Assembly: GCA_023957215.1 (NCBI GenBank)
Contig: JAMLHH010000004.1
Location: 1 to 64,000 of the forward strand
Direction: 5' to 3'
DNA length: 64,000 nt
DNA from: Chitinophagales bacterium
GTDB lineage: Bacteria; Bacteroidota; Bacteroidia; Chitinophagales; JADIYW01
Position numbers and translations under genes: made by a program. Under the pieces are notes generated by a model, which worked only from the letters and a program-made list of their open reading frames with translations, did no database searches and had not been told where the DNA came from. Positions 37,677 through 55,543 of the stretch are shown in pieces. Every line of letters starts with the position of its first letter. Positions within the stretch are counted from its first letter, which is position 1.

Positions 37677-39464
37677 TTACTCCACCACCACTCTTCTTGT
37701 AACAACTCCTTCTTCAAAGTATAAATTGACAAAATAGAGGCCTTTGCCATACTGACTTAAATCCTTTTTGAAAGTCTGTTTGCCATAGAGATTTTTCAGT
37801 TCTTCAGATGATATGACTTGTCCCAATACATTGACGATATCCATTCTCGCTGTTTTGACTTTAGTAGCAATGATCTCAATAGAGAAATAGCCGTCGTTAG
37901 GGTTGGGATAGATGGTGAAAGCATCAATTCCCACTTCTTTTTCATCCACAGAAACAGACAAAATTTCCATACTTTCTGACATACTTTTACAACCATAAGG
38001 ACTCGTATATTCTACTGAGTAAATACCTTTTCTATTTACCGTGAAAGTTTTATCATTGGCTCCTTGTATAGGTTTTCCATTCAAATACCATTGGTTATCA
38101 GTATTATAATTTGAAGTAAGGACATCATTCTTCTTTGTAATAACCGGCGGCTTAGGTATGGCTCTTATAGAAAGAGACAAGGTTCGTGCGACACCGCTAC
38201 CGCAATCACTCAATGCCACCACTCGCAAAGTACCACTGGTAATTGGCGTCAAAGTAATAGTGGTTCCATCACCAATGGGCTGGCCTTCACCGGTATATGT
38301 CCACAGATATCCTTTTGCACCACCTACGGGATTTATTGTATATTTCTGGGTCATACCACTACAATATGATGTCTCACCTTTAATAGGACCGGGCTGAGAA
38401 GTCGGCGCACCATCTTTCACTACTATTTTTAAAGTCCTTGCAGGGCTTTCCCCACAATCATTATGTGCTATTACACTGAGTGTGCCATTACTTAAAGGCT
38501 TAAATGATATTGTTCTCCCTGTTCCTGTGATTGTCTCACCTCCTGTATAAGACCAAGTATAACTCTTCACATCAGCATCTGCATCTACAAAATAAGTCTG
38601 ATTAGTCCCTTTACAAACTGTTGCTCCACCTTGAATAACGCTTGGTCGCAATGGGATAGGTGTTACTTTTATTTGTAAAGTACTTGGAGTACCTAATCCA
38701 CATTTATTTTTACCTGATACAGTTAATGTACCGCTTGTGGTAGGTTTTAAAGTAATATTTCTTCCTGTACCTGAAGGCGTTCCTTTACCACTATATGACC
38801 AAATGTAAGTATCCGCTCCGACAATTGCAGGAACTTGATATTTAATCTCTTCTCCATTACATAAATTTGTTTTACCACTAATTGCATCGGCTCGCGCTGG
38901 AAGGCTACTTACGGTAATTTTTAAGGTTCGGGAGGCGCTAACACCACAAGAATTTTCCGCTATCACTGTCAAGACACCATCACTTGTAGGTTTTAAAGTA
39001 ATACTTCGTCCGGTGCCTGATGGGTTGCCATTTCCACTATAAGACCAAGTATATTTCTCAGCACCGCTGACAGCAGCTACTTGATATGTTTCTGATGTAC
39101 CATTACAAACACTCGCATTACCGCTGATTGCTTCGGGACGTGATGGCTTAGATAATATCTTTACAGCCAATGTCCGAGAAGTACTCACACCACATGAATT
39201 TTCTGCAACTACTGTTAATGTGCCATTACTTGTAGGCTTAAACGATATCTTATTACTTTTTCCGGTTGGTGTACCAGATCCGCTATAAGTCCAAGTATAA
39301 GTTTCTGCATCTTTTACCTCCGGAACTGAGAAGCTGACTGTCTCACCGGAACAAATGTTATCAGAACTAGCAGTAATAACTCCCGGACGAGCCGGAGCTT
39401 TGATATTACTGACCACAATAGCATTGCTGACCGTCGAATTACCACAATCATTAGAAACAACCAA
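37677..39464 (-). CDS. C-terminal part of giant secreted M43 metallopeptidase (frameshifted): PKD-like repeats and T9SS domain
   Basis: This frame continues the upstream gene in the +1 phase; its open frame in fact reaches back to about 39600, through TLCANESVVLTTSLTGVNYQ and a first Ig-like module. It holds five further PKD-like repeats of about 82 residues (each with C.G....Y.V......Y.WSYSG.G.P.G.GR.I.. and N.CG), one Ig-like module, and a type A T9SS sorting domain (FTIYPNPNDGYFSIEI ... KGLYFVNLYFEEGVV). Alone it has no signal peptide, so it makes sense only as part of one protein. Confidence 0.88.
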   Translation of the reverse strand: MVVSNDCGNSTVSNAIVVSNIKAPARPGVITASSDNICSGETVSFSVPEVKDAETYTWTYSGSGTPTGKSNKISFKPTSNGTLTVVAENSCGVSTSRTLAVKILSKPSRPEAISGNASVCNGTSETYQVAAVSGAEKYTWSYSGNGNPSGTGRSITLKPTSDGVLTVIAENSCGVSASRTLKITVSSLPARADAISGKTNLCNGEEIKYQVPAIVGADTYIWSYSGKGTPSGTGRNITLKPTTSGTLTVSGKNKCGLGTPSTLQIKVTPIPLRPSVIQGGATVCKGTNQTYFVDADADVKSYTWSYTGGETITGTGRTISFKPLSNGTLSVIAHNDCGESPARTLKIVVKDGAPTSQPGPIKGETSYCSGMTQKYTINPVGGAKGYLWTYTGEGQPIGDGTTITLTPITSGTLRVVALSDCGSGVARTLSLSIRAIPKPPVITKKNDVLTSNYNTDNQWYLNGKPIQGANDKTFTVNRKGIYSVEYTSPYGCKSMSESMEILSVSVDEKEVGIDAFTIYPNPNDGYFSIEIIATKVKTARMDIVNVLGQVISSEELKNLYGKQTFKKDLSQYGKGLYFVNLYFEEGVVTRRVVVE

Positions 39465-39574
39465 TGTATATGTCCCCGCAGTTGTAGCAGTATAATTCTT
39501 CTTATTTTCTCCACTAATATTACTACCATTCTTCCTCCATTGATAGTTAACACCTGTAAGAGAAGTCGTAAGAA

Positions 39575-42500
39575 CTACACTTTCATTTGCACAAAGGGTA
39601 TATTTCCATTCGCAGAGATGGCCGGTTTATCGGGTACTGTTTTCACCGTAACTGCAAAAGTTCTTTCAGTGCCTGCTCCACAATCATTATTGGCAACTAC
39701 ACTCAAAGTGCCACTACTAGTGGGTTTGAATGACACACTAGTACCTTTTCCAGACGGGCTTCCACCTCCTGAGTATGACCATGTATATGATGTAGCGCCT
39801 GAAACAGCAGCAATAGAGTAACTTATGCTTGTCCCGCTACATACATTATTTGCACTTGCTGTAATAACTCCCGGACGTGCTGGAAGCGGATTGACTTTGA
39901 TTGATAGTGTTTTTGCGGTACTGGTACTACATCCATTCTTGGCTTTTACACTTAAAGTGCCGTTACTTGTAGGTGAAAATGTTATACTTCTACCGATACC
40001 GGATATATTGCCTCCTCCACTATACGTCCATTCATAAGATGTAGCACCGGATACAGCAGGTACTGAATAAGTCTGTGCCGAGCCACTACAAACCACCGTA
40101 TTGCCGCTGATATCTTTAGGTGTCGTTACTGATGAATTTGATACTTTAATGGCTAACGTTTTAGCAGAACTATTTCCACAACTATTTTTAGCAACGACTT
40201 TTAGTGTCCCGCTAATTGTAGGTGAAAGTTTGATAGAGCGCCCGGATCCTGATAAAGTACCATCGCCGCTATACGTCCATTCGTAAGATGTAGCATCTGT
40301 AACAGTAGATACTGAATAGGTTTGAGATGTACCACTGCAAACTTCGGCATTTCCCGTAATATCTGTAGATAAAACCGGTATTGCTATGACTGTCACCGCT
40401 AAGGTTCTTGCACTTCCTGAACCACAGTCATTATTGGCAACTACACTCAAAGTACCACTGCTTGTAGGTGAAAAAGTAATACTTCTTCCGGTACCGGACG
40501 GATTACCTCCTCCACTATACGACCATTGATATGATGTAGCGTCTGATACAACAGGAATAGAGTAGCTTACATTAGTGCCACTACATATATTATTTGCACT
40601 TGCTGTAATAACTCCCGGTTGAGCAGGAAGAGGATTTACCGTTATCGCCAAAGTCCTAACGGCACTCATCCCACAATCATTAATAGCCGATACACTTAAT
40701 ATGCCACTGCTTGTAGGTGAAAAAGTAATACTTCTTCCGGTACCGGACGGGCTACCACTTCCACTATACGACCATTGATATGATGTAGCGTCAGCGACGA
40801 CCGGTATAGTGTAAGTTTGAGAGGTTTCACTACAAATTGTAGTGTTGCCGCTAATCACACTTGGTTGCTTCGGCAAATTGCTTAGAGTTAAAGTGATATT
40901 GGCAGACTTTGAACCGCATGTATTAGAAACTGTAACGGAATATGTACCTGCTTTCGTCACATTTATAGACGATGTTTTTTCACCCGTATTCCAACTATAA
41001 TTACAGTTTTCACAATCTGTATAAGATGTCAAGCGAACAACGTTACTATTACATACCACATCACCCCAACTATCGCTTATAATTTCGAGTTCTGTAGGAG
41101 GATTGCAAATTACTCCCTGCTGATTAATGATATGTGTTTCTCCATTATTTAAAGTAATCTGACAAGTTCGTGGAGAAGATGAAGTATTGGCGGAAACCGA
41201 TACACTAATATCCCTATCTCCTGAACCACTTGTCCTATTAAAGCTTACCCATGAACAATTAGATTGACTGAAACTCCACGAACAATTAGACTCTGCATCA
41301 ACTTCTAATGTATAAGAACCTCCCGCAGCACTAATACTTTTTGCAGAGGGATAAAAATAGGGGTCACATCCATTTTGAACAATTGTATGTTTTTTCCCAT
41401 TGACGGTTAAAATACAAGATCTTTGCTGATAAGTATTATTTTCATCATAGTCATAGAAAATTTCAGCTTGACCAATATATGGCGGAGAACCTACTCGAGT
41501 AGTTTTCCCTGTTGGATTTCTAATATTTACAAAATCACATCCCGAACCTTTAGTAACTCTATAATTACATTCAGGTTGTGTTGTATGAATCACTAAAGAT
41601 TCATCCGTATTACTTCCACCTCTTGATCTAGCATAATAGACCTCTGGGAAATAATTAAATATATCACAGTCAACGGACTGAGATGTATGTGTTACACAAA
41701 TAGTAAAGTCATCCCTACTTGGTCGAGTTGAATTGTAATTATATTCATAAACCCTTACATAGTAGGTTTGCCCAACTGTTAAATCATTCCATGTATTACT
41801 AACAGATGAAGGTGTGCCTTTTGGGTCATAACAGCCAAGTGTGTTTGCGCTTCCATAAGCACACTTAGACCTCAACTCTATTACAGCATCAAAATTACTA
41901 GCATAATTAGATACAGTTACAGTATGGCTACTTGCTTGGGCAACAAATTTATAATATACATCTAAATCATCTAGTGAAGGATCACAATTACAACCACTAC
42001 ATCTATTAGCACCATAGGAAGAAGTCGCTCCTCTTACAGTGCCGTTAAGACAAGAGCCATTAGATACAATTAATGTGGCATTCTCACAATCATCATTTTG
42101 AGTAGTAGAGCCACAAGATGAAGTAGTAACCGATCTCGAACTACTATAATTACTTGCATCACCATTAGGGCATACTGCTCTCACCTGCCAATTATATGAC
42201 ATTCCACAGTTCAGCCCCGGAATATTTATAGATGTACTGGAGGTAGTATATGAGGAGTTATTGAACCTCACTTCATATTTTTGAGCCCCTGATACTTGCG
42301 ACCAACTCAATGTTACTGAAGTTTGAGATGAAGACTGAGATAAACCGGAAGGGGTAGATGGGGTACATGTCGAAGTCGCTCCTCTAATCGTTATTGGAAC
42401 ATACTCTTGATTGTTGTTTTCGTTTGACTCATTGATTGTTTCTGCACCATCTGCCGAAAAGAAAATATAATAGGTTCCCGGACTAAGGTTTGCCGGTAAT

Positions 42501-43804
42501 TTTACAGTTTTAGTAATAGTAGTTGTAGAACTACTTGCAGGTAAGGAAGCCGAAACATAATATTCATCTAAGTATGTCGCACCATTACCGGGTCTTGTAT
42601 CGACATTTGAAGAAATATGAAAAGAGGTATAATGTGGCGAAGCAGTAGCTCCGCCAATATTATTCACTTTAAATGACAAACTCACATTTGCACCTGCATC
42701 AGTTGTTGTTGGTGAAACAGAAATGGAAGATATAGTTAAATCTGGTAGAGCTTGAATGGGGGGTGTACAGGCTTTAGAGTTTAAAAGAGTCCATCTAGGA
42801 CTTCCAATTGTCATTAGCCAATTCATCATTCGTGAAATTTGATCTGGTGTAAATAAAAGTTGATCTTTTTCAAATTCAAAGCAATAATTCATATAGTTAT
42901 ATCTACTATTATTCCATTCTCCAAGTCCACCGCATGGTTTATTTAATGCACATCTGTCCATTGATCTGTGAGGAGGGGTATCGCAAATCATATCGCCATG
43001 AATATTACAATCACTTTCAAGAGGACAAGCGTCAGAATTTGCATCTTGACCATTTCGAGCTTCATCATGAAAAGTATGAAATAATCCCAAATAGTGTCCA
43101 GTTTCATGGGGAATAGCTATAATAGATTTGTTATTAAAGTTTACAATTGCCTCTCTTTTTAATACTACGCCATTAACAACATCCGTTTCCCATGGCAAAG
43201 TCCCAAAACCACCAAAATCACCATCCTCTGTACCTGGAACACAAAGTGTTTCAACAACCCATATGTTAAAATAATCCTTTTCAGGCCAAATGAATTTTTC
43301 TTTCATTTTCTGAGATGTAATGCCTTTACATTTTCCTTTGTATTCACTTCGATCATTCATTACAATTGTTCCATTAAAAGAAGATAGCAGAGAGTTAAGT
43401 TTGTTACCATCCCATCTAACAACTCCATTTGTAGGGTTACCTAAAGGATCTCTTTCTGCAAAGCAAAACTGAATTCCAGTAGGTGCAAAGCTCTCATTTA
43501 AAAACATAATAGCATTCTTAATGTTATTTATATTAAAGTTTTTCAGAGCATCATCATCTCCATTATACACCCAATGAACGACAATAGGTATAACATAAGC
43601 TCTTCTTGCATTAGAATCAATTTTTATATTTTCTTTAGCTTTCTGAATTTCATTTATCATAGAAAGAAATCTTTCTTTGTAATTCAAATCTGTATTCATC
43701 ATTTGTTTGTGAATATCTTCAGTCCCACATTGAATTTCTCCTTGAACATTTAAAGAAGAAATTAATAACAAAACCATTAATAGTATTCTATTGAGTGTTT
43801 TCAT
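39575..43804 (-). CDS. N-terminal part of giant secreted M43 (pappalysin-type) metallopeptidase
   Basis: 1409 codons to the premature stop. Signal peptide (ILLMVLLLISSLNVQG); M43 metalloprotease domain with the zinc motif HETGHYLGLFH at about residues 233-243 and the NYMNYC Met-turn; a CARDB domain (about 350-470); a fibronectin III domain (about 480-570); a C-rich adhesion-like module; a BACON domain (GCDPYFYPSAKSISAAGGSY ... GDRDISVSVSANTSSSPRTC); then PKD-like repeats. Secreted and probably surface-attached. It stops in IPFVQMKV where the repeat pattern should go on; the true ending is in the downstream frame. Intact length would be about 2040 aa. Confidence 0.9.
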   Translation of the reverse strand: MKTLNRILLMVLLLISSLNVQGEIQCGTEDIHKQMMNTDLNYKERFLSMINEIQKAKENIKIDSNARRAYVIPIVVHWVYNGDDDALKNFNINNIKNAIMFLNESFAPTGIQFCFAERDPLGNPTNGVVRWDGNKLNSLLSSFNGTIVMNDRSEYKGKCKGITSQKMKEKFIWPEKDYFNIWVVETLCVPGTEDGDFGGFGTLPWETDVVNGVVLKREAIVNFNNKSIIAIPHETGHYLGLFHTFHDEARNGQDANSDACPLESDCNIHGDMICDTPPHRSMDRCALNKPCGGLGEWNNSRYNYMNYCFEFEKDQLLFTPDQISRMMNWLMTIGSPRWTLLNSKACTPPIQALPDLTISSISVSPTTTDAGANVSLSFKVNNIGGATASPHYTSFHISSNVDTRPGNGATYLDEYYVSASLPASSSTTTITKTVKLPANLSPGTYYIFFSADGAETINESNENNNQEYVPITIRGATSTCTPSTPSGLSQSSSQTSVTLSWSQVSGAQKYEVRFNNSSYTTSSTSINIPGLNCGMSYNWQVRAVCPNGDASNYSSSRSVTTSSCGSTTQNDDCENATLIVSNGSCLNGTVRGATSSYGANRCSGCNCDPSLDDLDVYYKFVAQASSHTVTVSNYASNFDAVIELRSKCAYGSANTLGCYDPKGTPSSVSNTWNDLTVGQTYYVRVYEYNYNSTRPSRDDFTICVTHTSQSVDCDIFNYFPEVYYARSRGGSNTDESLVIHTTQPECNYRVTKGSGCDFVNIRNPTGKTTRVGSPPYIGQAEIFYDYDENNTYQQRSCILTVNGKKHTIVQNGCDPYFYPSAKSISAAGGSYTLEVDAESNCSWSFSQSNCSWVSFNRTSGSGDRDISVSVSANTSSSPRTCQITLNNGETHIINQQGVICNPPTELEIISDSWGDVVCNSNVVRLTSYTDCENCNYSWNTGEKTSSINVTKAGTYSVTVSNTCGSKSANITLTLSNLPKQPSVISGNTTICSETSQTYTIPVVADATSYQWSYSGSGSPSGTGRSITFSPTSSGILSVSAINDCGMSAVRTLAITVNPLPAQPGVITASANNICSGTNVSYSIPVVSDATSYQWSYSGGGNPSGTGRSITFSPTSSGTLSVVANNDCGSGSARTLAVTVIAIPVLSTDITGNAEVCSGTSQTYSVSTVTDATSYEWTYSGDGTLSGSGRSIKLSPTISGTLKVVAKNSCGNSSAKTLAIKVSNSSVTTPKDISGNTVVCSGSAQTYSVPAVSGATSYEWTYSGGGNISGIGRSITFSPTSNGTLSVKAKNGCSTSTAKTLSIKVNPLPARPGVITASANNVCSGTSISYSIAAVSGATSYTWSYSGGGSPSGKGTSVSFKPTSSGTLSVVANNDCGAGTERTFAVTVKTVPDKPAISANGNIPFVQMKV

Positions 43805-43989: not shown

Positions 43990-44418
43990 TCATACGCGAT
44001 AAAGCGAATTTACACGAGTTTGTTTTGCCTTTGCGATATCATGAATCAAGTCATGGATTTTACTTTCACTGATGCCTTTCGCGCTGATATTTAGTGCAAC
44101 TCCACCATGAGAAGTGACTGCAATGACATACAATCTTGTCAGCCACCATAAGGCTATCAAAATTGCTCCTACACTCAATCCTAAGAAAATAGCTCCTGAA
44201 CCCAAATAAAGTCCGGCAGCAATACACAATATTCCCACAATAAGTAACCACAACTTGCTTTTATATCTCACTTCTACTGTACTGATATTCTCTAAAAACA
44301 TATCTATATAATAGGATTGTCCTGAGAGGATTTTTTCCATCCATATACGCCGGTTGGTCAGTACCACTTCATTATTATTTGAGCGTAAAAGTTCTTCTTC
44401 GTTTTCTAATAGTTTCAT
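43990..44418 (-). CDS. Small membrane protein with a bacterial PH-like domain
   Basis: 142 aa. NEVVLTNRRIWMEKI and SYYIDMFLENISTVEVRYKS resemble the first half of a bacterial pleckstrin-homology domain; two adjacent membrane helices (about 56-95) interrupt it, and LYVIAVTSHGGVALNISAKG, then IHDLIHDIAKAK complete it. The typical role of such proteins is structural or regulatory at the inner membrane. Last gene of the tubulin-like operon, 27 bases after the previous gene. Confidence 0.65.
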   Translation of the reverse strand: MKLLENEEELLRSNNNEVVLTNRRIWMEKILSGQSYYIDMFLENISTVEVRYKSKLWLLIVGILCIAAGLYLGSGAIFLGLSVGAILIALWWLTRLYVIAVTSHGGVALNISAKGISESKIHDLIHDIAKAKQTRVNSLYRV

Positions 44419-44445
44419 AGTTTAAGCTTTTTTTGTTTAAAATAA

Positions 44446-45978
44446 TTATTTTTTGACCGCTTCCGGCTTGAAATGAATACTTACTGTTCCAAGTTCTTTT
44501 CCGGCATCTAAATAGCTTTTAATATTTTCGGCACCACTCAATACTTTGCAGATGACTTTGTCATTCATAATGCTTTTAAATTCTAAAGTAGCCAATTTAT
44601 TCTTTACGGTTATTCCATTTGGCGATTGGTAAATATCCATAGGTTCAGTCACCATGAAATAAATTTTTTGACTCCCTGAAGTATTTTTAGAAAACAAAGA
44701 AAAGCCCCCAGAATGCTTAGGTCTATCACTAAAATACGCTGCATTATCTAAAGCAACTTCTTTAGGAACTCCTTTTTTGTTAGCATTACTAATTTCCAAT
44801 AGCTTAGATTGAATAGGAAACAGCATAAGTATATACGATTCAAAAAACTGTCTTGTTTTATTTGATATATCATCTAAGGCAAAATCACTCGTTTCACTTG
44901 TATTGGCTCTTCCACCAATCAAATTAATATACTGTTCGTGTGTAGTTGAAGAGTTGTTAGCATCTTGAACCGACAAATTTGCATTTACATTCATCTCATA
45001 ACCGGAAAAGGGCTGACGGGTGGCAATAACGGTTCCTGACTTTAACTCTAAATGAGCCTTAGATATATTCAATTCGAGATTAGCTTTTTTATCAAAAGGT
45101 GCATTTTCCCATTCTTCTTTTGTAGAAAGACTAAAACGAGAAGATCCCAAAAAGGCATTCAGATATTCACGGATAAAAAAAGCAGCCTCAGGTCGTTGGG
45201 TACTTGTCTCAGGGATATTTACCGCAAAATAGTTAGTTCCACTGATAGGTAGATCATCTGCTTGAAAATAATAAGCCATTGGAATCTGGTTGACAAAATT
45301 AACAGCATCATTAATCCTACCTTCCGCTCCACTGAAATAATTAAGATCCGTAGTAGAAATGTTTTCTTTCTGTGAACCCACCATAATGCTTTCTACATTA
45401 TTGTTCATGTCTAATCTTGCGATACCGACAAGTCGTAAAATACTGGCTTTTTTATACGTTCTATCCATAGAGCTTTGTGGTTGGGCAGAAAATGAAAAAT
45501 TTGCCCAAGGTGAAAGATTAGATTTGAGGGTATTGGGTCTATAAGCATTATCAATCGCTTGCAGATAAATTTTAAATCCAATGGAATAGCCTGCATTTTC
45601 AAATATTTCATCCACCATTTCAAGCTTGACAAGTTTCATAAGTTTGTTAGACTCAGTATATATAGTTTTACTCAGGTAGTCTTCAAGCTTTCGGGAGTTT
45701 GTCGCAAAAACCAATGATTGATATGGAGGAAAAGATAGTCGTTGTCTTGTTTTTTTAACAATTTCTTCTTGTGCTATTTTAACTATTCTATCTCTGTCAA
45801 TTTTACTGACATTCCCATTATATTTAATTCGAATATATTCACTTTCATCAGTAATAATTTCTCCTTTTATCTGACTGCCATCTTTCAAGTAAATAACATC
45901 TTGAGTTGTGTTTTGCCCAAACATAACGTTAATAAATAGCGAACTCAAAATCAGTATAAGCAATATATTTTTTTTCAT
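44446..45978 (-). CDS. Exported protein of unknown function in tubulin-like operon
   Basis: 510 aa with the start chosen at MKKNILLILIL, 45 bases inside the longest frame, because this gives a clean signal peptide (cleavage near MFGQ) and removes overlap with the preceding gene. After the signal, DVIYLKDGSQIKGEIITDESEYIRI is a small beta motif frequent in Bacteroidota exported proteins, where it precedes many different domains. The rest is long and mixed alpha/beta with no family I recognise. The C-terminal IYFMVTEPMDIYQSPNG may be an SH3-like strand. Probably periplasmic. Confidence 0.7.
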   Translation of the reverse strand: MKKNILLILILSSLFINVMFGQNTTQDVIYLKDGSQIKGEIITDESEYIRIKYNGNVSKIDRDRIVKIAQEEIVKKTRQRLSFPPYQSLVFATNSRKLEDYLSKTIYTESNKLMKLVKLEMVDEIFENAGYSIGFKIYLQAIDNAYRPNTLKSNLSPWANFSFSAQPQSSMDRTYKKASILRLVGIARLDMNNNVESIMVGSQKENISTTDLNYFSGAEGRINDAVNFVNQIPMAYYFQADDLPISGTNYFAVNIPETSTQRPEAAFFIREYLNAFLGSSRFSLSTKEEWENAPFDKKANLELNISKAHLELKSGTVIATRQPFSGYEMNVNANLSVQDANNSSTTHEQYINLIGGRANTSETSDFALDDISNKTRQFFESYILMLFPIQSKLLEISNANKKGVPKEVALDNAAYFSDRPKHSGGFSLFSKNTSGSQKIYFMVTEPMDIYQSPNGITVKNKLATLEFKSIMNDKVICKVLSGAENIKSYLDAGKELGTVSIHFKPEAVKK

Positions 45979-45988
45979 ATTTTTCTTT

Positions 45989-47134
45989 TTATTCTTTTTT
46001 AGATGGTGTTGTAAACGTATCAAAGAGATTACCTATGCGATCTCCCCATGCTTTTTTTCTTCTTTCCTGAACTTCTTTCGGAGTTCTATTAATGGGTACA
46101 CTTTTTGATTTACCGGACAGTATTACTACCTTGTCACTTCCAGGTGATGCAACTCTTGGTCCCATAACATGTATTTTATACACTCCATCTTCCAATTCGA
46201 GTCCATAAACCGGAAGAGTAGCTCTCGTTTCTCTTTTAGTTTGCTGATTAACAATTACTACTGGTTGACCCTCCAAAAAATCTGCACCTATATATAAATC
46301 TAAAGTTCCTTTTTGTTTATCTAACTGTATATTCAAAGTGTATTCGCCATTATCGCCAACTAATTTTTTCATCTTCCTTGTTTCGTAATCACTAGCTTCT
46401 ACTTTTATATCATGATAGCCTGGGGAAACCGGAATTGGAATCCCATTTATAAAATCAACTTCTTCTTCATCTATAAAAAGCTTAGATTTTATTGGATAAA
46501 TACTCGTTATAAAATGTGGCTTATTACTGACTTCTTTTATTGGTTCTTCTTTTGATGGTTTAACTAAACTGTAGCCTTTTAGTGGGTTGTTTGAGTTTTT
46601 AGCCAATCCAAAATCAATTACTTTATATTCTCCCTTGACCGATAATACTTCCAACAGCATATTCACTTCCACTTTGTTTTCTTCTACTTTTTTATTTTCG
46701 GTTGGCGATACTGATAAAAATCTGTCAAATGAAACCAGCAAAACTTTTTGATTAACTTCATTTACATATAGTTCACTTGTTGTTATATTTTGAGGATAAA
46801 TTTCAATCTCATTTTTGGTTTGTGTCAGCATTTGTACATAATCTCTTATAGAATAAAAATCTTTATTTAATCCGACCATTTGTAAATCGTTACCTATCAT
46901 TTTACTATCGTCGCCACCGTAATAGTCATTCATAAATTTATAAGTAATATCTTTTCGCTCTGAATAAGTTAGATTCAAATCAATAAGCATATCGATCACT
47001 GTATAATAGTTTTCTACGAAACTTTCCGCTCCATCCTTATAGGATTTGATATGGTACTCAGTCAATGCTTCTTCAGCATTGGCAGTTAGTGCTATGCCAA
47101 TAAATAGAATTAAGATAAATCTAAGTTTTTTCAT
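45989..47134 (-). CDS. Exported protein with PEGA-like beta domains
   Basis: 381 aa; signal peptide MKKLRFILILFIGIALTANA. N-terminal alpha-helical part to about residue 200, then KLFIDEEEVDFINGIPIPVSPGYHDIKVEASDYET, which has the pattern of a PEGA domain (short surface beta sandwich: small loop, P-x-pair, G.H.I.V...Y), and a second such module (VVIVNQQTKRETRATLPVYGLELEDGVYKIHV). Lies four bases after the preceding gene. Function unknown. Confidence 0.7.
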   Translation of the reverse strand: MKKLRFILILFIGIALTANAEEALTEYHIKSYKDGAESFVENYYTVIDMLIDLNLTYSERKDITYKFMNDYYGGDDSKMIGNDLQMVGLNKDFYSIRDYVQMLTQTKNEIEIYPQNITTSELYVNEVNQKVLLVSFDRFLSVSPTENKKVEENKVEVNMLLEVLSVKGEYKVIDFGLAKNSNNPLKGYSLVKPSKEEPIKEVSNKPHFITSIYPIKSKLFIDEEEVDFINGIPIPVSPGYHDIKVEASDYETRKMKKLVGDNGEYTLNIQLDKQKGTLDLYIGADFLEGQPVVIVNQQTKRETRATLPVYGLELEDGVYKIHVMGPRVASPGSDKVVILSGKSKSVPINRTPKEVQERRKKAWGDRIGNLFDTFTTPSKKE

Positions 47135-47138
47135 ATCA

Positions 47139-47909
47139 TTATTTTTTCACTTTATCAATAGCTGAAATTAACCATCCAGCATTCATTGTTTTTCTCATAT
47201 AATAATCCACTGTAATATTCCAGTCTCCTATATTTTCAAATACATATTGAATAGAGTTGATTTGATTAAAAACAATATCTCCATTCTTAATATAGTCTCG
47301 AAAAGAACTCATAGAACTATATGATTCATCATTAGAGTATTTCATCATATCTTCTTTTGCTAACAGTGCTTTAGACAATTCGGAAAATCCAATTTCATTG
47401 TTTACCGGATTGATACTGGATTTACTTTCGGAAATATTTTCATCAAATATTTTTCCGTTTATTTTTGAAATGACCCATTTATACCCTACTTGTTCATCTC
47501 CAATATAGTTCATTTTCAAGGTCAGAAATAAAGGCTCATTTTTATATGTAAACCGGCATTTTGCATATACTATCCAATCCTTTTCATCTTTAGAAAGTAT
47601 GTAGTTGACAGTATCTTTACCGACTTGTGCAATAAAATTTTTTGTAGAGGAATCGTTTACAAAAGCTGTGTCATGTCTATTTAGCAAACAAGACAAGTTG
47701 AATGCTCGACTTATCTTTTCTCCGGGTACAACAATGGGTTCTGTAAAATTAAATCTATCTACAAATTGCTGCATTTTGAATGTCTGCAAATAAAATTTTT
47801 TAGCTAAGAACTTTTCAAAATTTTCCGGTTCTCCCGTGTCTTGAGAACTTGCATTCCGAAAGAAAAACAAACTCAGTATTATTGTCAATATGGTAGTATT
47901 AAGTTTCAT
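47139..47909 (-). CDS. Exported protein of unknown function in tubulin-like operon
   Basis: 256 aa; signal peptide with hydrophobic TTILTIILSLFFFRNASSQ. Mature part KFYLQTFKMQQFVDRFNFTEP, WIVYAKCRFTYKNEPLFLTLKMNY and a C-terminal NITVDYYMRKTMNAGWLIS suggest an NTF2- or DUF-like cone fold, but I do not recognise a family. Tight spacing: one base from the gene before it and four to the next. Confidence 0.68.
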   Translation of the reverse strand: MKLNTTILTIILSLFFFRNASSQDTGEPENFEKFLAKKFYLQTFKMQQFVDRFNFTEPIVVPGEKISRAFNLSCLLNRHDTAFVNDSSTKNFIAQVGKDTVNYILSKDEKDWIVYAKCRFTYKNEPLFLTLKMNYIGDEQVGYKWVISKINGKIFDENISESKSSINPVNNEIGFSELSKALLAKEDMMKYSNDESYSSMSSFRDYIKNGDIVFNQINSIQYVFENIGDWNITVDYYMRKTMNAGWLISAIDKVKK

Positions 47910-47910
47910 T

Positions 47911-48723
47911 TTAGCTTCGTCCGTAATCTTCTACATAAATATCTCCTAATTTCAATATAAATTCAACATTACCAAGCACTTCAACTCTTTCTAATATAAT
48001 TGTGACTCTCTTACAGGTAACATCTCTGATATTAAACTCCTGATTTCTATCGTATTCCGTACTGGATGTTTTTGTTTTTGCTTGAAATAGCTGACAAAAC
48101 GTAGCTTCTGCATAATAATTTCCATCAGTTCCTTTTTTGAAATCACTGGCAAATCCAATATCATAGGCTGTATATTTTACAGATTTATAGTTGTACACTA
48201 CCATTTTTATTCGATTTAAATAAGCTCTAATCTTATGATAAGCTTTCGCATTTGGTGTTTTAATAGAAGTAACTTCAACCGTTTTGCTCTCATCTAAAAA
48301 TAAGGCAACAGCACTGTTTATAGCATCATTTCTCTCTTGATTAGAATATTGAGGATCGCCAATCTTATTAATCAAACCCATCAAATCTTCAATTGCATTG
48401 GCTGCTTCTTTCTTAAAGTTTTCTTTCTGTTCGTCAGTTAATACTAATGAGTTAGTTTTCTCATCAGAATTATTAGCTTCTTTTTTCTGAAGACTCTCAT
48501 TAGTCACCTTATTTTTGCTCTCGTTATCCATCTCTTGAAGCTTTAAAAAGAGCTTGAATTTTTCAAATAAATCATCTTGGTTTTGCTGTGCCGGAGTAGA
48601 ATTAGTCTTTTCCTGCATTTGCATAAAAGCCTTAAACTTTTCAAAAAGATCTTCCTCTTGTTGCTGTGCAGAAACAAAAGAGGCTATAAAAAAAAGAGTG
48701 AGAAAAAATAAATATCGTATCAT
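47911..48723 (-). CDS. Exported protein with a duplicated DLFEKFK motif
   Basis: 270 aa; signal peptide MIRYLFFLTLFFIASFVSAQ. The following 55 residues contain the same stretch twice: DLFEKFKAFMQMQE and DLFEKFKLFLKLQE, separated by a Gln/Asn/Ser-rich spacer, both likely amphipathic helices. The C-terminal 150 residues look like a folded alpha/beta domain (SIKTPNAKAYHKIRAYLNRI, RVEVLGNVEFILKLGDIYVED). No family recognised. Overlaps the preceding gene by four bases (ATGA). Confidence 0.7.
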   Translation of the reverse strand: MIRYLFFLTLFFIASFVSAQQQEEDLFEKFKAFMQMQEKTNSTPAQQNQDDLFEKFKLFLKLQEMDNESKNKVTNESLQKKEANNSDEKTNSLVLTDEQKENFKKEAANAIEDLMGLINKIGDPQYSNQERNDAINSAVALFLDESKTVEVTSIKTPNAKAYHKIRAYLNRIKMVVYNYKSVKYTAYDIGFASDFKKGTDGNYYAEATFCQLFQAKTKTSSTEYDRNQEFNIRDVTCKRVTIILERVEVLGNVEFILKLGDIYVEDYGRS

Positions 48724-49475
48724 AGTTCTCTAACCATTAATTCCACATATTTATTACCGTCTGTCTGTCCTCCTTGTTGTACAAAAACCTGTTTTCCCGA
48801 CCCTGTTAATCTTGTGACATAATCTTTTGCACCAAATCGCCTCATAATACTACCGTTATTATCCACTATATTGACAAATGCCTGAGAGGAGCTAAAAAAT
48901 TTGGTGTAGTTTTTAATCATATCTCCTTTTTCACAATTGGGTATTTGTTTATCCGACACTTTACTCAAAAAATCATCAATAGATGATGCAGAAATCTGCT
49001 TACAGGCAGATTCCTTTTGAGCAGGTGTTACGACGGGTGCAGTGGAATTGTTTACCGTTTTATCATCAGATTTATTAGGTTGTCTGGACTGTGTAGGCTG
49101 TTGAGTTTCAGGAGTTGTTGTTTTTTGCGCTTCGGATATTTCTTCAATTTTATCTTTGATAACAGGAACTATACCCGACTCTTCAACTACTTCCTTTACT
49201 TTCTCCACTGTTTGAATACCGGCCTTTACCGTTTTCTTGGCTTTTGAAAACCAGTAATAGGTATAGCCACCGGCTCCTAAGAATAGTATAAGAATCGGCA
49301 ACATAATTAACATTGGTTTGGACAGTTTCATCTTTTTCTTTCCTCCCATCTCAACCAATTCTCTTCCACATTCCGGACAAACAAAGTCGGCCGCAATGGG
49401 AGTCTCTATCGGCAACTTACTGTCTGCATTCTTGCAATTGCCTACATTTATACAAATTCCTGTTCTTTGACTCAT
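48720..49475 (-). CDS. Zinc-ribbon transmembrane protein in tubulin-like operon
   Basis: 251 aa. N-terminal cytoplasmic zinc ribbon with C8, C14, C33 and C36 (GICINVGNC and FVCPECGREL). One membrane helix (about 54-76, KPMLIMLPILILFLGAGGY). A low-complexity, coiled-coil-prone Lys/Glu/Gln linker to about 155, then a C-terminal globular domain that ends in NKYVELMVREL. The topology places the ribbon in the cytoplasm next to the tubulin-like protein and the last domain in the periplasm, so it is the natural link between the two compartments. Six bases after the tubulin-like gene. Confidence 0.72.
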   Translation of the reverse strand: MSQRTGICINVGNCKNADSKLPIETPIAADFVCPECGRELVEMGGKKKMKLSKPMLIMLPILILFLGAGGYTYYWFSKAKKTVKAGIQTVEKVKEVVEESGIVPVIKDKIEEISEAQKTTTPETQQPTQSRQPNKSDDKTVNNSTAPVVTPAQKESACKQISASSIDDFLSKVSDKQIPNCEKGDMIKNYTKFFSSSQAFVNIVDNNGSIMRRFGAKDYVTRLTGSGKQVFVQQGGQTDGNKYVELMVREL

Positions 49476-49481
49476 AGAAAA

Positions 49482-52400
49482 TTAATTTTTTAGAATTTCA
49501 ATAGATTTTTTTACTGCATTATAGAAGCGGATATATGTAGAATCATTAGTATTGTTTTTACATTCCGGCAGAACGATTTCTTTTACATCATTAACAATCT
49601 GTTTTTGTAATTCTGTACGTTGTGAAATGTGTAGAAACTCTCCTCTTAGTTTATCCTGCACTTCTGATTTAATATCAGCAATAATTTCATCTGTCAGATT
49701 ATTTACAGAATCTGTCAACTTCCCTCCTAAAGACAGTAATCCTGATGGCAGTCCTAATTCATCAACCTGTGCAATTCCATAAACTTGTTTTCCGGTACCA
49801 TCTCCAATATCTTGTCGCTGAATAATATTTAATGCTTTTGCTAAGACGAGGTATGGAAGCGCATCATCAATCAACTGTTTCTTCTGCTGAGCTATTTCGG
49901 CAGCGCTTAGTAAAAAGAGTTTTGGGAAACTTGTACCATCGCCCTCCATGTGCAATACTAACTGAGAAATCTCCTTATCTGTCTGTCGAAGTACAGTTTC
50001 GTATTTCTGTTTCAGAAAAGTCACCTCGTTTACAGCTCTGAGCGGAAAACAATATGCCATACTCATTATACATATTTCATTCTTCTTTTCACTCTTGTCA
50101 TCAAAGATGATTGTCTTCCCTCCCGGAATAGCATTTACAAAAGCATTTTTAAGCTTTTCAACAAAATCTTTCTTCTCCTCTACAAAAGGTAAGCTAATGA
50201 CTACGTTTTCAAGTTTTATATTTACGCCCGGGCGAGGTGCATCATTATTTTCTATAAATTTCTGTACCTCACCATTCTCGAAATTGATAAAACATCCACT
50301 ATACTTCACTATATTTCTAACAAAATCATTGAGTGCTGATTGATCATTACCAAACTGTTCGTGTAGTTTTTCAACAATGTTTACTCCGATGATTTTGTCT
50401 TTCTTTGAAGTAATCAGCTCATTGTGGGCTGCAATGGAATGATGCTTACAAGTGTTTTCTAACACATCTAAAAAATAGTCATCAGACACTCGCTCATTGA
50501 GTTTGGTAAAAGTTGGTTCATTGCCTATTCTATCAACAATTTTATTACGTATATCAGATGTCTGTCTTTTTTGAATATTTTCATCTTGTAATATTCGATT
50601 GTTAAACTGCTTTACTTTTTCAACTTCATAATACTTGACTATTGCCTCTTTAAAACTATCTTCATTCAGTTGCGTATCATCACATCGTGAGGCAATTATT
50701 TTTTCTGCTTGTGTAATAATAGAGTTGATTTTTTCAGAAAATCTTGTAATTTCCGAACTAAGTATTAAGAGTTGATTGATAATTTCAGCCATTAATTCTT
50801 TCGAAAAAGCCCAAGCTTCCTGATAAGTCTTTTGAGTATAAAGTGCTTGTAAAATAGTTCCGTGCGCTTCAAAAATCTTTTTTCTTTTTCCTAAAATATC
50901 ACTTATAACACTGGTTTGAGACCATGCAATTTCATTCTTGTTTTTATTGACAATATTCTTTTCAATCTCTTCGGATATTTGATTGAGTTTTACACTCATG
51001 TTTCCCAGCCTTGTTTCAGAATGTCCAATCAGAACCTCAATTATCTTAGAAATTTCAGCTACCGATCGTTGTCCCGTTTTCCACTCTTCAAAAAGGCTCT
51101 TTTCAATTTTTTCAGCGATCTCTTTAGCGATTTCTTTTTTTGCAAGTCTTTTTATTTTATAAAACTCCGAAACACCTACTTTTCTGAAATTCTTCTCATA
51201 TCTTTCTTCACAAAATTTTGAAAGTTGATTTAAAGGAGTGGTTTTATCATTGGAATTTTCCCATGCTGTCGTTTTCAATATTGGAACGATGGCATTCCAG
51301 TCTTCTAAAATCGTTTTCCAGTTTTGACTTTCATCACCTTTTAAAATGGGTAAGGATAGGGTAAGATGGTCATCCGAAAGATTATAATTTCGGATAGTGT
51401 TTTTATCGTTTATAAAGCTATGATAGTCTTCGTTTCTCGGTTGATCTCTATATCCTAAATCATCACTCCAATTATTATATTTGAACTGTAGAAGTACCTG
51501 TTTTGTGAAATTATATGTGAAATACTCAACAATTTCTTCTTCCGGAATTTCTATTCTCTTTATGCCAAACGATAAAAATCTCTTAGAACGAACAGGGATT
51601 TTGCTATCTGATGATTTTGCATTTTCATCATATTCTTTCCAATCGGAAATGTTTTCAAAATTCTCAGTTCTATCAAAAGCCTTTTTTGCATCGCTACCGG
51701 ATGTCAGGCTCAATTTCTGAAACAAAAAATCTGACACTATTCCCGGCAACTGCTCTTTTGTATCAACTATTACACCATTCTCATTGGTATTTGTAAATAA
51801 ATAGCATCCGTTAAAGAAATCTCCACTACCATCCAGATTGACTCTATCTGACTGACCTGTTACATCATGAGGACTGAATCTTCCAACAGAGATAGCATTT
51901 AGCTCCGTCAATGCCGCATAACCATTTGCGTGATAATATCCTTTATCCCAGCCTGGCTTAGGAGTTTGTTCCGGAACTAATACATAAACAAATATTTTAT
52001 ACTTTAATCCTGAACCAATATTAGAACGATAGGTTTTACGAACTTGGGCTATTGTATCTATAATCGAACCACTACCCGTTCCTCCAGCGAGCCCTGTAAA
52101 TATATGAAAAGATACATCGTTTTGACCTGTTTTCTTTCGTACTGCCTCCACCTGATTTTGGAGGATAGATAAAAACTCCGGAATCTTACAAGAAAACAAA
52201 AATCTGCCTAATCTTCTTCTTTGAGCAGCAGCTCCGTCATCAGCCACATTCCCTACAATATTATCCCAAATTTTTCTATTTCCAATCCAATGTTTTATAC
52301 CGGGATAATTATCTACATTGTCTAACTGAGCTTTTAGACTTGCACCTCTAATAAACAACTGACTATCTTTTCCCAATTGCGCATTTTCACCTAAAACTTT

Positions 52401-52580
52401 CCAAGATGGGTCATTGGGATCCATCATCTCCTGGCTTGAATCTACATAAAGATATCCAAGAGGTAATTTTCTTCTTTCCTCTTGATTATACTCTGCAAAA
52501 ATTTTCTTTCTGAATGATTTAAGAATAGCTCCTCCTGTTCCACCTAATCCAATAACCACATGATTGTCTGCAATCGTCAT
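49482..52580 (-). CDS. Large tubulin-superfamily GTPase (Tubulin_2-like)
   Basis: 1032 aa. N-terminal tubulin/FtsZ-type nucleotide domain: GLGGTGGA at residues 11-18, a YVDSS segment, then GLAGGTGSGS at about 164-173, the tubulin signature loop (GGTGSG). KIFVYVLVPEQTPKPGWDKGYYHANGYAALTELNAI follows. After about residue 330 there is a long mostly helical, charged region with coiled-coil character (about 450-720) and a C-terminal domain (LPYLVLAKALNIIQRQDIGDG). It is far longer than FtsZ (~400 aa) and fits the FtsZ-like family that Pfam calls Tubulin_2. Predicted to bind GTP and probably form filaments; activity not shown here. It starts a seven-gene, almost gap-free operon. Confidence 0.85.
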   Translation of the reverse strand: MTIADNHVVIGLGGTGGAILKSFRKKIFAEYNQEERRKLPLGYLYVDSSQEMMDPNDPSWKVLGENAQLGKDSQLFIRGASLKAQLDNVDNYPGIKHWIGNRKIWDNIVGNVADDGAAAQRRRLGRFLFSCKIPEFLSILQNQVEAVRKKTGQNDVSFHIFTGLAGGTGSGSIIDTIAQVRKTYRSNIGSGLKYKIFVYVLVPEQTPKPGWDKGYYHANGYAALTELNAISVGRFSPHDVTGQSDRVNLDGSGDFFNGCYLFTNTNENGVIVDTKEQLPGIVSDFLFQKLSLTSGSDAKKAFDRTENFENISDWKEYDENAKSSDSKIPVRSKRFLSFGIKRIEIPEEEIVEYFTYNFTKQVLLQFKYNNWSDDLGYRDQPRNEDYHSFINDKNTIRNYNLSDDHLTLSLPILKGDESQNWKTILEDWNAIVPILKTTAWENSNDKTTPLNQLSKFCEERYEKNFRKVGVSEFYKIKRLAKKEIAKEIAEKIEKSLFEEWKTGQRSVAEISKIIEVLIGHSETRLGNMSVKLNQISEEIEKNIVNKNKNEIAWSQTSVISDILGKRKKIFEAHGTILQALYTQKTYQEAWAFSKELMAEIINQLLILSSEITRFSEKINSIITQAEKIIASRCDDTQLNEDSFKEAIVKYYEVEKVKQFNNRILQDENIQKRQTSDIRNKIVDRIGNEPTFTKLNERVSDDYFLDVLENTCKHHSIAAHNELITSKKDKIIGVNIVEKLHEQFGNDQSALNDFVRNIVKYSGCFINFENGEVQKFIENNDAPRPGVNIKLENVVISLPFVEEKKDFVEKLKNAFVNAIPGGKTIIFDDKSEKKNEICIMSMAYCFPLRAVNEVTFLKQKYETVLRQTDKEISQLVLHMEGDGTSFPKLFLLSAAEIAQQKKQLIDDALPYLVLAKALNIIQRQDIGDGTGKQVYGIAQVDELGLPSGLLSLGGKLTDSVNNLTDEIIADIKSEVQDKLRGEFLHISQRTELQKQIVNDVKEIVLPECKNNTNDSTYIRFYNAVKKSIEILKN

Positions 52581-52657: not shown

Positions 52658-53248
52658 TTATCGCACTTTCCATCCATCATCAAAAAGAGCCATGTTTTCA
52701 AGCCTATCTTTAGCTTCTGTAGATAAATTTTTTCCAAATGGAGTTAAATTGGTTCTTACTATTGTATAATACACATCTGCACCACCTAATTCTTTATAAG
52801 TTTGTACTCCTGTAATCTCACCAAAGTCTATAGTGCTGGTTCTTAAAGTAAAGTTGTCTTCATCTTCACTTTTTAAATACTGTTTACCTTTTTCAGTCAA
52901 GGTAACATTCATCAATACCCAAATAAGAATACCTTGTTCTCTTTCTTTTTCTTCTATATTAATCAGACCATCCGCTTGTAATTGATCTAATTTATCTTTT
53001 TCATCACTATAATGAGCACCGCCCCACAAACCTACCGGTGGGATAAAACCACTTTGTTCATAATACTGCCTAATATAATATTCTTTCGGCAACTTCGTAG
53101 TTTCATCATAGGGCAAACCTTCAGCTTCGACGATTAATTCTTTAGCCTTTTTATGTGATAAATTCTTACTATCACAAGCTGATAAGCTTATAATAGAAAT
53201 TAACAGTACTAATATATTTATCCCCATATTTATTATTTTACAAATCAA
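52658..53248 (-). CDS. Lipoprotein of unknown function
   Basis: 196 aa, with a lipoprotein signal ending SLSAC (Cys25). The first codon is TTG; an ATG at codon 8 gives a shorter signal without its only Lys, so I keep the longer form with doubt. The mature part has HKKAKELIVEAEGLPYDETTKLPKEYY and VTLTEKGKQYL, which looks like a winged-helix-style strand-helix fold also seen in some plasmid-borne lipoproteins; no family called. It lies 77 bases upstream of the tubulin-like gene and may belong to the same transcript. Confidence 0.65.
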   Translation of the reverse strand: MICKIINMGINILVLLISIISLSACDSKNLSHKKAKELIVEAEGLPYDETTKLPKEYYIRQYYEQSGFIPPVGLWGGAHYSDEKDKLDQLQADGLINIEEKEREQGILIWVLMNVTLTEKGKQYLKSEDEDNFTLRTSTIDFGEITGVQTYKELGGADVYYTIVRTNLTPFGKNLSTEAKDRLENMALFDDGWKVR

Positions 53249-53270
53249 TAAACTTAAACCTTATGCCATA

Positions 53271-53534
53271 TCATTCACTCTTCCTAGTATTTTTTTCAAT
53301 TGCTAAGAATACTTGTATTAATTCACTAAAAGCGATAAACACCAAACTAAATAGTATAATAGAAACACCTGTAATCAGTTGCATTAGATCATTTTCTGAA
53401 AAATAATGTCTAGGTTTCATGGGTTCTAAAATCCCTTCATAAACGGATAAATAAGCCCCTATTAACACACCCAAATAGCTCACATATTTAATAATAGTGG
53501 ATAGCATTTTCAAAATTGGAAAATCATTGTTCAT
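53271..53534 (-). CDS. Small two-helix membrane protein
   Basis: 87 aa with two hydrophobic helices (about 12-32 and 46-72) joined by a loop containing EPMKPRHYFSENDLMQ. The short, membrane-only design resembles small accessory proteins. No family recognised; between two lipoprotein genes on the same strand. Confidence 0.6.
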   Translation of the reverse strand: MNNDFPILKMLSTIIKYVSYLGVLIGAYLSVYEGILEPMKPRHYFSENDLMQLITGVSIILFSLVFIAFSELIQVFLAIEKNTRKSE

Positions 53535-53554: not shown

Positions 53555-55543
53555 TTAATCTTTTACACAACGACAAGAGTATCCATGATTTTTAGGATCT
53601 ACACCTCTGTCTATAGATGAGTTCTTATGGTACAAGTTTCTTGCCCATGCTATATCAGCTGTGTTTTCAGTAGAACTCCACCATAACCCATTGAGTGAAA
53701 TATTCATAAATGAGCCGTTAGGTAATCTGTAACCTCCCGGCAAGGCAGAGAACCCGCTTTGATTAGTAGAGTTGTCATTGGTTTCCCAACCTCTAGCACT
53801 TTTTAATTTTGATCCAATACTTTGAGCTTCACCTCTCCAACCAAAAACTTCTGTTTCTGATGATGGAAGTCCAAGTGTTTGTTCTAATTTTGTCCAATCA
53901 TCATCCGTCGGTATATGCCAACCATTCGGACATAATTTACCGGAATTAACAGCGTGCCAATTGTATAAGTTTCCTAAATATGAATAGCTAATATCGTTAT
54001 TATAAAGTACCCAAGCACCGGAATTCAAGTTTGACCATGAGGTATTATTCGTAACATTAGGAATATTAGAACCATCGTTGTATTTGGTTGTTTTTAGGTT
54101 TTCTGCCATCCAAGTTTGTGAACCTATTCGTATCGTTGCGTATTTGTTACCTTCAATATCGGATACACTTCCATCCAGCAGATCTAAATTAAAAAAGGTG
54201 TTTTTATTAATTTGATTTAATCTATCTGCAATATGCTGTATGATTTCGTCATTCTCGGTTTGAGCAGTATGGGATATTAACATGTTTATTTGAAAAATCT
54301 TACCTATTGTAACGTTCGGTTGATTTGCTTGAATACCCATAGCACTACTTTGCGCTACAATGCCATCACCCTCACCCAATCCACCATTACCTACACTTGC
54401 TATCGGATAATACGAAGTGGAAGATGGAGCTGGGTTTTTATTTAGATTAGTTAAAAACGCAGAACCAACGTCCAAATCTCTTAGTCCTTTAGAATTGTTA
54501 AAAAAGTTAAGTAAATTATATGCTTTCACGAGTTTGGTGCTACTTACTAAAATGACACCACCAATTGCATTTCTAATTGAAGCTAATGAAGCTCCTTGAT
54601 GTGGAGTCCCAATTGTAGTAAGGCTTTTAACAAATTGCGCTGCTCCATGATTTTCTATCGCGCTTCTTGATACTAGACCGCCCATGCTGTGACCGATGAT
54701 ATCTACTTCAGCACCATTTGTTAGGGTTTTAAGAAAGCTCGCTAATTTTTCACCATTATCATCAATTGCCAACCCCGAGTTATAACCAAAAGTTACAATA
54801 TGAGTATAACCGGAAGGAAGAAGCTTTTTATAAATCTTTTCTACAAACGTAGTCCATGCATTTGAAGGACTACTTATCCAACCATGAACTAAAATCAAAA
54901 CTTTATCAGTCTTTTTTAACACTGGAAGATTAGAAAACAACAAGCCTCCATTACCTATTTCGATTTTCTTTATTCCCATTTCATTCGTAGGCAGAGATTG
55001 TTTACTTTTTAATATGCTTACAAAGAATTCTGTCTCTGGCAAGTCCAATCTTGCATTTTCTGCTACACGTTGATTATTAAACTTTTCAAAATTCAAATAG
55101 TCTAATCTCGCTATAATTTTATCTTTTGTCTCAGACCAGAAAAGAGGGAAATAGCTATCTCCATTAGATATAAATATACTTATTTCATCAGGGTTTGTAT
55201 AGCCCTTAGGTTTCGACATTTCAATCAAAACGTCTTGCTTAAGAGAATCTACTGCTATTTGTATCGTAAAAGGTCTGCCCAGTACTTCAAATGCCGGATT
55301 GGGGACACTTAAAGGTTCATCCCCTGTATATCCAACCGATACTACTTCATCTTCATCAAGTGCATCTTTAGGAAAAACAAGTTTTAAATCATTATTGACT
55401 GAAATAGTTCCCCCTTCCTTGGTGATAGTCTGAGTTATCCATACATTCTCATCAAGCACATCTGAAAGTCTCTTATCCTTCTTACAAGAGGAAATAAAAA
55501 CCACAAGAATTGTAAATAAAAAGTACTGAAAAGTCTTTTTCAT
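53555..55543 (-). CDS. Surface lipoprotein: alpha/beta-hydrolase (lipase-like) fused to FISUMP domain
   Basis: 662 aa. Lipoprotein signal ending FISSC (Cys20) then KKD. N-terminal beta region (residues 30-200), then an alpha/beta hydrolase with LILVHGWISSPSNAW (oxyanion loop), VDIIGHSMGGLVSRSA (nucleophile Ser at about 285) and GTPHQGAS (lid region); the triad is plausible. The C-terminal ~190 residues are a FISUMP domain (GSQTWMAENLKT, LYNWHAVNSGKLCPNGWHIP, LPGGYRLPNG, WWSSTEN, YSCRCVKD). Probably a membrane-anchored lipase or esterase. The FISUMP tail has the same ending SCRCVKD as the protein at 8.3 kb. Confidence 0.87.
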   Translation of the reverse strand: MKKTFQYFLFTILVVFISSCKKDKRLSDVLDENVWITQTITKEGGTISVNNDLKLVFPKDALDEDEVVSVGYTGDEPLSVPNPAFEVLGRPFTIQIAVDSLKQDVLIEMSKPKGYTNPDEISIFISNGDSYFPLFWSETKDKIIARLDYLNFEKFNNQRVAENARLDLPETEFFVSILKSKQSLPTNEMGIKKIEIGNGGLLFSNLPVLKKTDKVLILVHGWISSPSNAWTTFVEKIYKKLLPSGYTHIVTFGYNSGLAIDDNGEKLASFLKTLTNGAEVDIIGHSMGGLVSRSAIENHGAAQFVKSLTTIGTPHQGASLASIRNAIGGVILVSSTKLVKAYNLLNFFNNSKGLRDLDVGSAFLTNLNKNPAPSSTSYYPIASVGNGGLGEGDGIVAQSSAMGIQANQPNVTIGKIFQINMLISHTAQTENDEIIQHIADRLNQINKNTFFNLDLLDGSVSDIEGNKYATIRIGSQTWMAENLKTTKYNDGSNIPNVTNNTSWSNLNSGAWVLYNNDISYSYLGNLYNWHAVNSGKLCPNGWHIPTDDDWTKLEQTLGLPSSETEVFGWRGEAQSIGSKLKSARGWETNDNSTNQSGFSALPGGYRLPNGSFMNISLNGLWWSSTENTADIAWARNLYHKNSSIDRGVDPKNHGYSCRCVKD

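Follow-up and report, generated by a model that had tools for sequence, protein, structure and literature searches.

Tubulin-like proteins of the FtsZl1 family

The closest described relatives of the locus presented here belong to the FtsZl1 family, which was named by Makarova and Koonin (2010, PMC2875224) and corresponds to the Pfam family Tubulin_2 (PF13809). According to that paper, FtsZl1 proteins are about 1000 aa long and are composed of a tubulin-like N-terminus, a helical middle, and an additional C-terminal part. Their operons encode many membrane and exported proteins, with OmpA-type proteins in some of them. The authors proposed a role in membrane remodelling, whereas a reviewer of the paper preferred transport or signalling. 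More recently, the family was described as a divergent and sparsely distributed group (PMC9871819, 2023). No experimental paper on Tubulin_2/FtsZl1 proteins was found in the literature searched, and a sequence search for a solved structure of a family member returned only trace similarity to tubulins. Described in 2010 and absent from that experimental literature, this class is indeed poorly characterized, as the earlier note on this DNA had stated.

Organization of the operon

The window, i.e. the whole stretch of 64,000 nucleotides that was analysed, carries seven ORFs on its minus strand between positions 43990 and 52580 (Table 1). All seven almost gap-free genes of the earlier note were found where it had placed them, with gaps of 1–27 bp and a single 4-bp overlap. 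The tubulin-like gene is followed after 6 bp by the gene of a zinc-ribbon protein with one transmembrane (TM) segment, hereafter the anchor, which overlaps by 4 bp the gene of the exported protein P3_W. The genes of P4_W, P5_W, P6_W, and a 142-aa protein then come after 1, 4, 10, and 27 bp, respectively. The 10-bp spacing holds if the ORF listed as 525 aa starts at an internal Met, most likely its true start, giving a product of 510 aa with a signal-peptide-like beginning (MKKNILLILILSSLFINVMFG). Two genes lying upstream in the same orientation, encoding a lipoprotein-like and a membrane protein, are uncertain members of the operon, and their products do not resemble the membrane proteins encoded upstream in relatives. 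Promoter and terminator scans gave hits no more numerous than in shuffled sequences.

Table 1. Features of the tubulin-like operon (positions in the window).
Feature	Position	Strand	Basis or remark
Tubulin_2/FtsZl1-family protein, 1032 aa	49482–52580	−	PF13809 match, AlphaFold2 model, PDB fold matches
T1 loop GLGGTGG, residues 11–17, predicted nucleotide-binding	52530–52550	−	nearly every position at least 90% conserved, alignments A1/A6
T4 signature GLAGGTGSGS, residues 163–172	52065–52094	−	nearly every position at least 90% conserved, alignments A1/A6
Zinc-ribbon/one-TM anchor, 251 aa	48720–49475	−	next after the tubulin gene in 17/17 relatives with DNA downstream of it; hhalign to family
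Four-cysteine ribbon C8-x5-C14 ... C33-x2-C36	49368–49454	−	all four Cys invariant in 14 aligned homologues
TM segment, about residues 54–75 of anchor	49251–49316	−	hydrophobic stretch
Outer (periplasmic) head of anchor, possibly an NTF2-like fragment	48723–49040	−	P3 domain profile, about 24% probability, suggestive only
P3_W, 270 aa, predicted exported; conserved domain about 91–270, two DLFEKFK in N-terminal extension	47911–48723	−	
P4_W, 256 aa, predicted exported	47139–47909	−	adjoins P3_W homologues in six other loci
P5_W, 381 aa, predicted exported, weak PEGA-like part	45989–47134	−	PEGA, E 0.095
P6_W, predicted exported	44446–45978	−	N-terminal 50–60 aa similar to NCBIfam NF047433, a common exported domain (E 6e-8, under its cut-off)
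Small protein, 142 aa, two TM segments, PH-like by DUF6232	43990–44418	−	PF19744, E 4e-4, below cut-off
Possible upstream members: a lipoprotein-like protein (196 aa) and a membrane protein (87 aa)	52658–53534	−	orientation, 77 bp before the tubulin gene

The tubulin-like protein

The 1032-aa protein is the product of the sole Tubulin_2 gene in its genome. Its place in the tubulin superfamily, already claimed in the earlier note, is unambiguous, since residues 8–363 match PF13809 with an E-value of 1.1e-64 (219.4 bits, cut-off 27). The tubulin-like domain (about 1–363) precedes a long helical middle (about 424–760) and an alpha/beta C-terminal part. In an AlphaFold2 model of moderate confidence (pLDDT 69, pTM 0.46), long helices span residues 507–554 and 565–632, and a further domain extends to residue 1032. 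The top PDB fold matches of this model are tubulin-superfamily proteins (best E 1.3e-4, with low TM-scores), and the matches include CetZ2 (4b45), TubZ (4xcq), and BtubA (2bto).

The T1 and T4 loops are conserved across the Bacteroidota branch, and the core of T4 (AGGTGSG) fits the superfamily motif GGGTG(S/T)G. These two loops make GTP binding by the 1032-aa protein plausible. The catalytic T7 region is not assignable, so that hydrolysis and FtsZ-like filaments are uncertain. As stated in the 2010 paper, T7 is equally hard to assign in the family at large, where the polymer-forming elements after T4 are not identifiable (PMC2875224).

A conserved unit in Bacteroidota

Nineteen loci were compared, 15 Bacteroidota loci from a scan of genome contigs and four (L066, L068, L073, and L074) from order- and phylum-level searches; DNA downstream of the tubulin gene is present in 17. 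Each of these 17 continues, on the same strand, with a gene for a zinc-ribbon/one-TM protein, a linkage that persists with tubulins down to about 29% identity. The anchor of the window aligns with this family over residues 2–81 (hhalign, 98.9%, E 3e-17). Recurrence of the tubulin–zinc ribbon order in all of these relatives indicates that the operon is not a product of chance. Together with the invariant cysteines and the position of the anchor gene, directly downstream on the same strand, it supports a coupling of the tubulin to the membrane. Within the Tubulin_2/FtsZl1 family, it is this Bacteroidota branch, with its constant zinc-ribbon anchor, that is new.

The gene order is conserved beyond the anchor as well. 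Two exported proteins, P3 and P4, follow it in 15 of the 17 loci, and a third, P5, in 14; the contig of L017 stops short of P5. A Cds6_C NTF2-like domain (PF24125) was found in all 10 P5 members scanned, and the sixth gene is variable, encoding TPR proteins, Sel1 proteins with a barrel, or proteins with PEGA and FGE-sulfatase domains. In Mangrovibacterium marinum DSM 28823, the locus is complete and includes the usual trio (L005). The window is without this P3-P4-P5 trio. The anatomy of a tubulin–anchor–exported protein system is well supported in this branch, and no such partners were seen for those Tubulin_2 proteins of the order that are more distantly related.

Several observations were made in passing at these and other Tubulin_2 loci. 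In a Prevotellaceae locus (L006:10847-14055), the P5 gene is present three times in tandem. Beside a Tubulin_2 gene, a protein of about 1355 aa with a calpain-type protease domain (PF00648) is encoded at L053:6229-10296 (E 1e-24) and L062:5796-9860 (E 5.5e-21), and similar ORFs occur in L061 and L063. The L053 protein has a T1-like motif at its start and a weak Tubulin_2 match at residues 470–555 (E 0.0016), as though the protease interrupted a tubulin-like domain. In the same locus, a vWA protein is encoded two genes before the Tubulin_2 gene.

The outer parts of the anchors differ among relatives, being MORN-like in 5 of 14 and Ig-like in 2. The L073 anchor is fused to PBP_like_2 (E 7e-28) and OmpA (E 9e-17) domains. 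Domains of these families do their work in the periplasm or at the peptidoglycan, which fixes the orientation of this anchor. In the window anchor, similar charges flank both sides of the TM segment, and its orientation is therefore taken from relatives: its outer part would lie in the periplasm, as in those with OmpA/PBP or MORN heads. The route from cytoplasm to periplasm through the zinc-ribbon protein, as drawn in the earlier note, is in this way largely supported by the gene order and by the OmpA/PBP-bearing anchor.

A proposed membrane-anchored tubulin arm

Our main reading, to which we give a probability of about 0.5, is that this Bacteroidota branch forms a tubulin arm that is anchored in the membrane and whose partners in the envelope can be exchanged. 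First, the cytoplasmic tubulin-like protein would bind GTP via T1 and T4, and would assemble or switch shape in a GTP-dependent manner by means of the tubulin domain and the long helical middle. Second, the zinc-ribbon protein, as gene order strongly suggests, would tether it to the inner membrane, probably by direct binding, with the ribbon facing the cytoplasm and the outer part in the periplasm. Third, the outer head of the anchor may dock the exported proteins, either the usual P3-P4-P5 or the other set of the window, and in one relative it may attach to the wall itself by its OmpA domain. The nucleotide state inside the cell would then position or remodel an envelope structure, and the system would have an envelope-shaping or envelope-organizing role in which the adaptor is constant and the outer cassette exchangeable.

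The strongest competitor, possible although clearly the less probable of the two, is a GTP switch working without filaments, in which a monomeric or oligomeric nucleotide sensor would send signals to the periplasm via the zinc-ribbon protein, or receive them from there. The unidentifiable polymer-forming elements noted above would agree with it, and so would the transport or signalling role put forward by the reviewer of the 2010 paper; ligand-binding outer heads (PBP_like_2) and an NTF2-like P5 fit sensing. However, a long helical middle joined to a tubulin fold is more typical of assembly, and a search of the operon revealed no output such as a kinase or a transcription factor.

The exported proteins of the window

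The tubulin arm proposed above would have outer partners of another kind in the window. At BLAST or profile level, no homology of the window's exported proteins to the usual P3 to P6 was detected. No Pfam family matched P3_W, P4_W matched neither Pfam nor PDB entries, and a PDB profile search with both families gave nothing convincing. For P5_W, no convincing homologue was found among 198 genomes, and for P6_W beyond its N-terminal part no relatives were found in the phylum. Several labels of the earlier note need to be toned down. The duplicated DLFEKFK is real, but it sits in an N-terminal extension absent from the homologues of P3_W and is thus little informative. The PEGA-like character of P5_W is weak (PF08308, 13.1 bits, with the cut-off at 20.8), and the PH-like assignment of the 142-aa protein also falls below its cut-off (21.1 against 27.4 bits).

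When 230 ORFs were searched with a profile of the P3_W domain, the best non-members were ORFs of the same operons, although weakly so, at 54% at best: the anchors of L066 and of the window, and the N-terminal parts of neighbouring exported proteins. This pattern of weak scores hints that the head of the window anchor and the exported proteins may share an NTF2-like domain. Like P3_W, the anchor head gave no Pfam match. A single-sequence fold of the P3_W domain reached a pLDDT of only 43, and the Cds6_C domain was not detected in the window's exported proteins.

Homologues of P3_W were found in six loci. In L066, a tubulin and an anchor are followed by homologues of P3_W and P4_W, in this order (E 1e-12 and 3e-13), the tubulin being very different from that of the window. 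In the other five (L083–L087, from four genomes), the two are again adjacent, and none of these genomes has Tubulin_2. In the loci scanned, these tubulin-free pairs adjoin LRR or TPR proteins. Apart from the window, just one locus was thus found to have this cassette beside a tubulin. In the tubulin tree, the window nevertheless stands beside the trio-bearing L005–L007 (support 88/92), which makes replacement of the outer cassette the likeliest history of the locus, with moderate support. The window's exported proteins were regarded in the earlier note as partners of the GTPase, and as new ones. As fixed partners they are not supported, showing no detectable relation to the usual trio and being present, as the P3-P4 pair, in Tubulin_2-free genomes. 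Novelty applies to the exported proteins themselves, but not to the protein class or its membrane and periplasmic gene company, which the 2010 paper already describes (PMC2875224).

These data also bear on a second alternative, in which tubulin and anchor alone form the unit and the exported proteins are passengers, a co-transcribed but unrelated cassette. The tubulin-free P3-P4 pairs would agree with it, as would the want of convincing relatives for P5_W and most of P6_W. It is nonetheless improbable, given that P3-P4 recur behind a tubulin and an anchor in L066 despite the very different tubulin, that the other branch keeps the trio almost without exception, and that the genes are almost gap-free.

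Distribution and genome setting

Tubulin_2 has a patchy distribution, with matches above cut-off in 22 of 398 genomes of the order, and two species of the same genus are without it. About 23 kb of the window, from about 37.5 to 61 kb, shows only short, scattered, and non-colinear DNA matches to these species and is accessory content. A simple empty site in the sister species was considered and rejected, as the flanks match rearranged places with no clean insertion site. Hallmarks of mobile elements were examined through tRNA genes and viral contigs; no relatives were found in the latter, a weak test with few and short patterns. Next to the operon, the window encodes two large secreted-type proteins with PKD_6 repeats (37677–43804), one ending in a type 9 secretion sorting domain (37677–39464) and the other carrying an M43 metallopeptidase domain (39575–43804). 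An alpha/beta-hydrolase (lipase-like) fused to a Fib_succ_major domain is encoded at 53555–55543.

Patchiness and the missing colinear DNA would agree with an anti-phage or other conflict system. That the operon is one is very unlikely: no tested gene matched PADLOC at E 0.01, the operon has no effector-like domain, and the weak test on viral contigs found no relatives. The defence role considered in the earlier note has nothing pointing to it.

The genome itself, scored 100% complete, gave no PF00091 match. Such matches were found in 58 of 61 genomes searched, including all 50 other relatives of at least 90% completeness, and the other two misses were 57% and 75% complete. FtsZ is encoded in both sister species (G001:C1:580537-581019 and G002:C12:142822-143304). 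The simplest and likelier reading is an assembly gap or missing contig, because the draft consists of 70 contigs and the 1.66 of 2.88 Mb (58%) searched yielded none of the genes that form the division cluster in the sister species; the orthologue of the TonB-type gene adjoining that cluster in the sister species lies elsewhere in this genome. That the host has truly lost FtsZ, with the membrane-anchored Tubulin_2 system and its periplasmic partners substituting for it or assisting it in part of constriction, is hardly credible, as a missing contig fits the draft and patchiness suggests an accessory gene, even though FtsZ is otherwise so constant in these relatives.

Comparison with known systems

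A widespread tubulin branch has been without a known function since its description in 2010. The constant one-pass zinc-ribbon partner turns a vague idea of membrane remodelling into a concrete pair, and the exchangeability of the outer cassettes hints at a way in which a tubulin of the cytoplasm might serve various tasks in the envelope. The tubulin–anchor–exported order points to an uncharacterized machine that would connect a filament or switch inside the cell with its envelope.

Compared with TubZ, CetZ, BtubA, and eukaryotic tubulins, the fold of the window protein matches, but with low TM-scores, other C-terminal parts, and another gene company. With FtsZ, it has in common the superfamily fold and the nucleotide-binding signature, and attachment to the inner membrane via a partner would be a functional parallel. 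Unlike FtsZ, it is much longer, has an accessory distribution, and retains only a trace of PF00091 (E 0.005, 17.5 bits, below the cut-off of 33). Within its own branch, the window differs in that the Cds6_C domain of the usual P5 was not detected in its exported proteins. As a difference from other FtsZl1 loci, its operon yielded no kinase, no P-loop GTPase, and no vWA protein, the last a usual but not obligatory partner of the family; in the parts of PMC2875224 searched, no description was found of a constant zinc-ribbon anchor followed by an exported trio or alternative cassette. It is nevertheless FtsZl1, as described there, that the window protein resembles most closely, sharing the T1 and T4 loops, the helical middle, the C-terminal domain, a length of about 1000 aa, and an operon rich in membrane and exported proteins.
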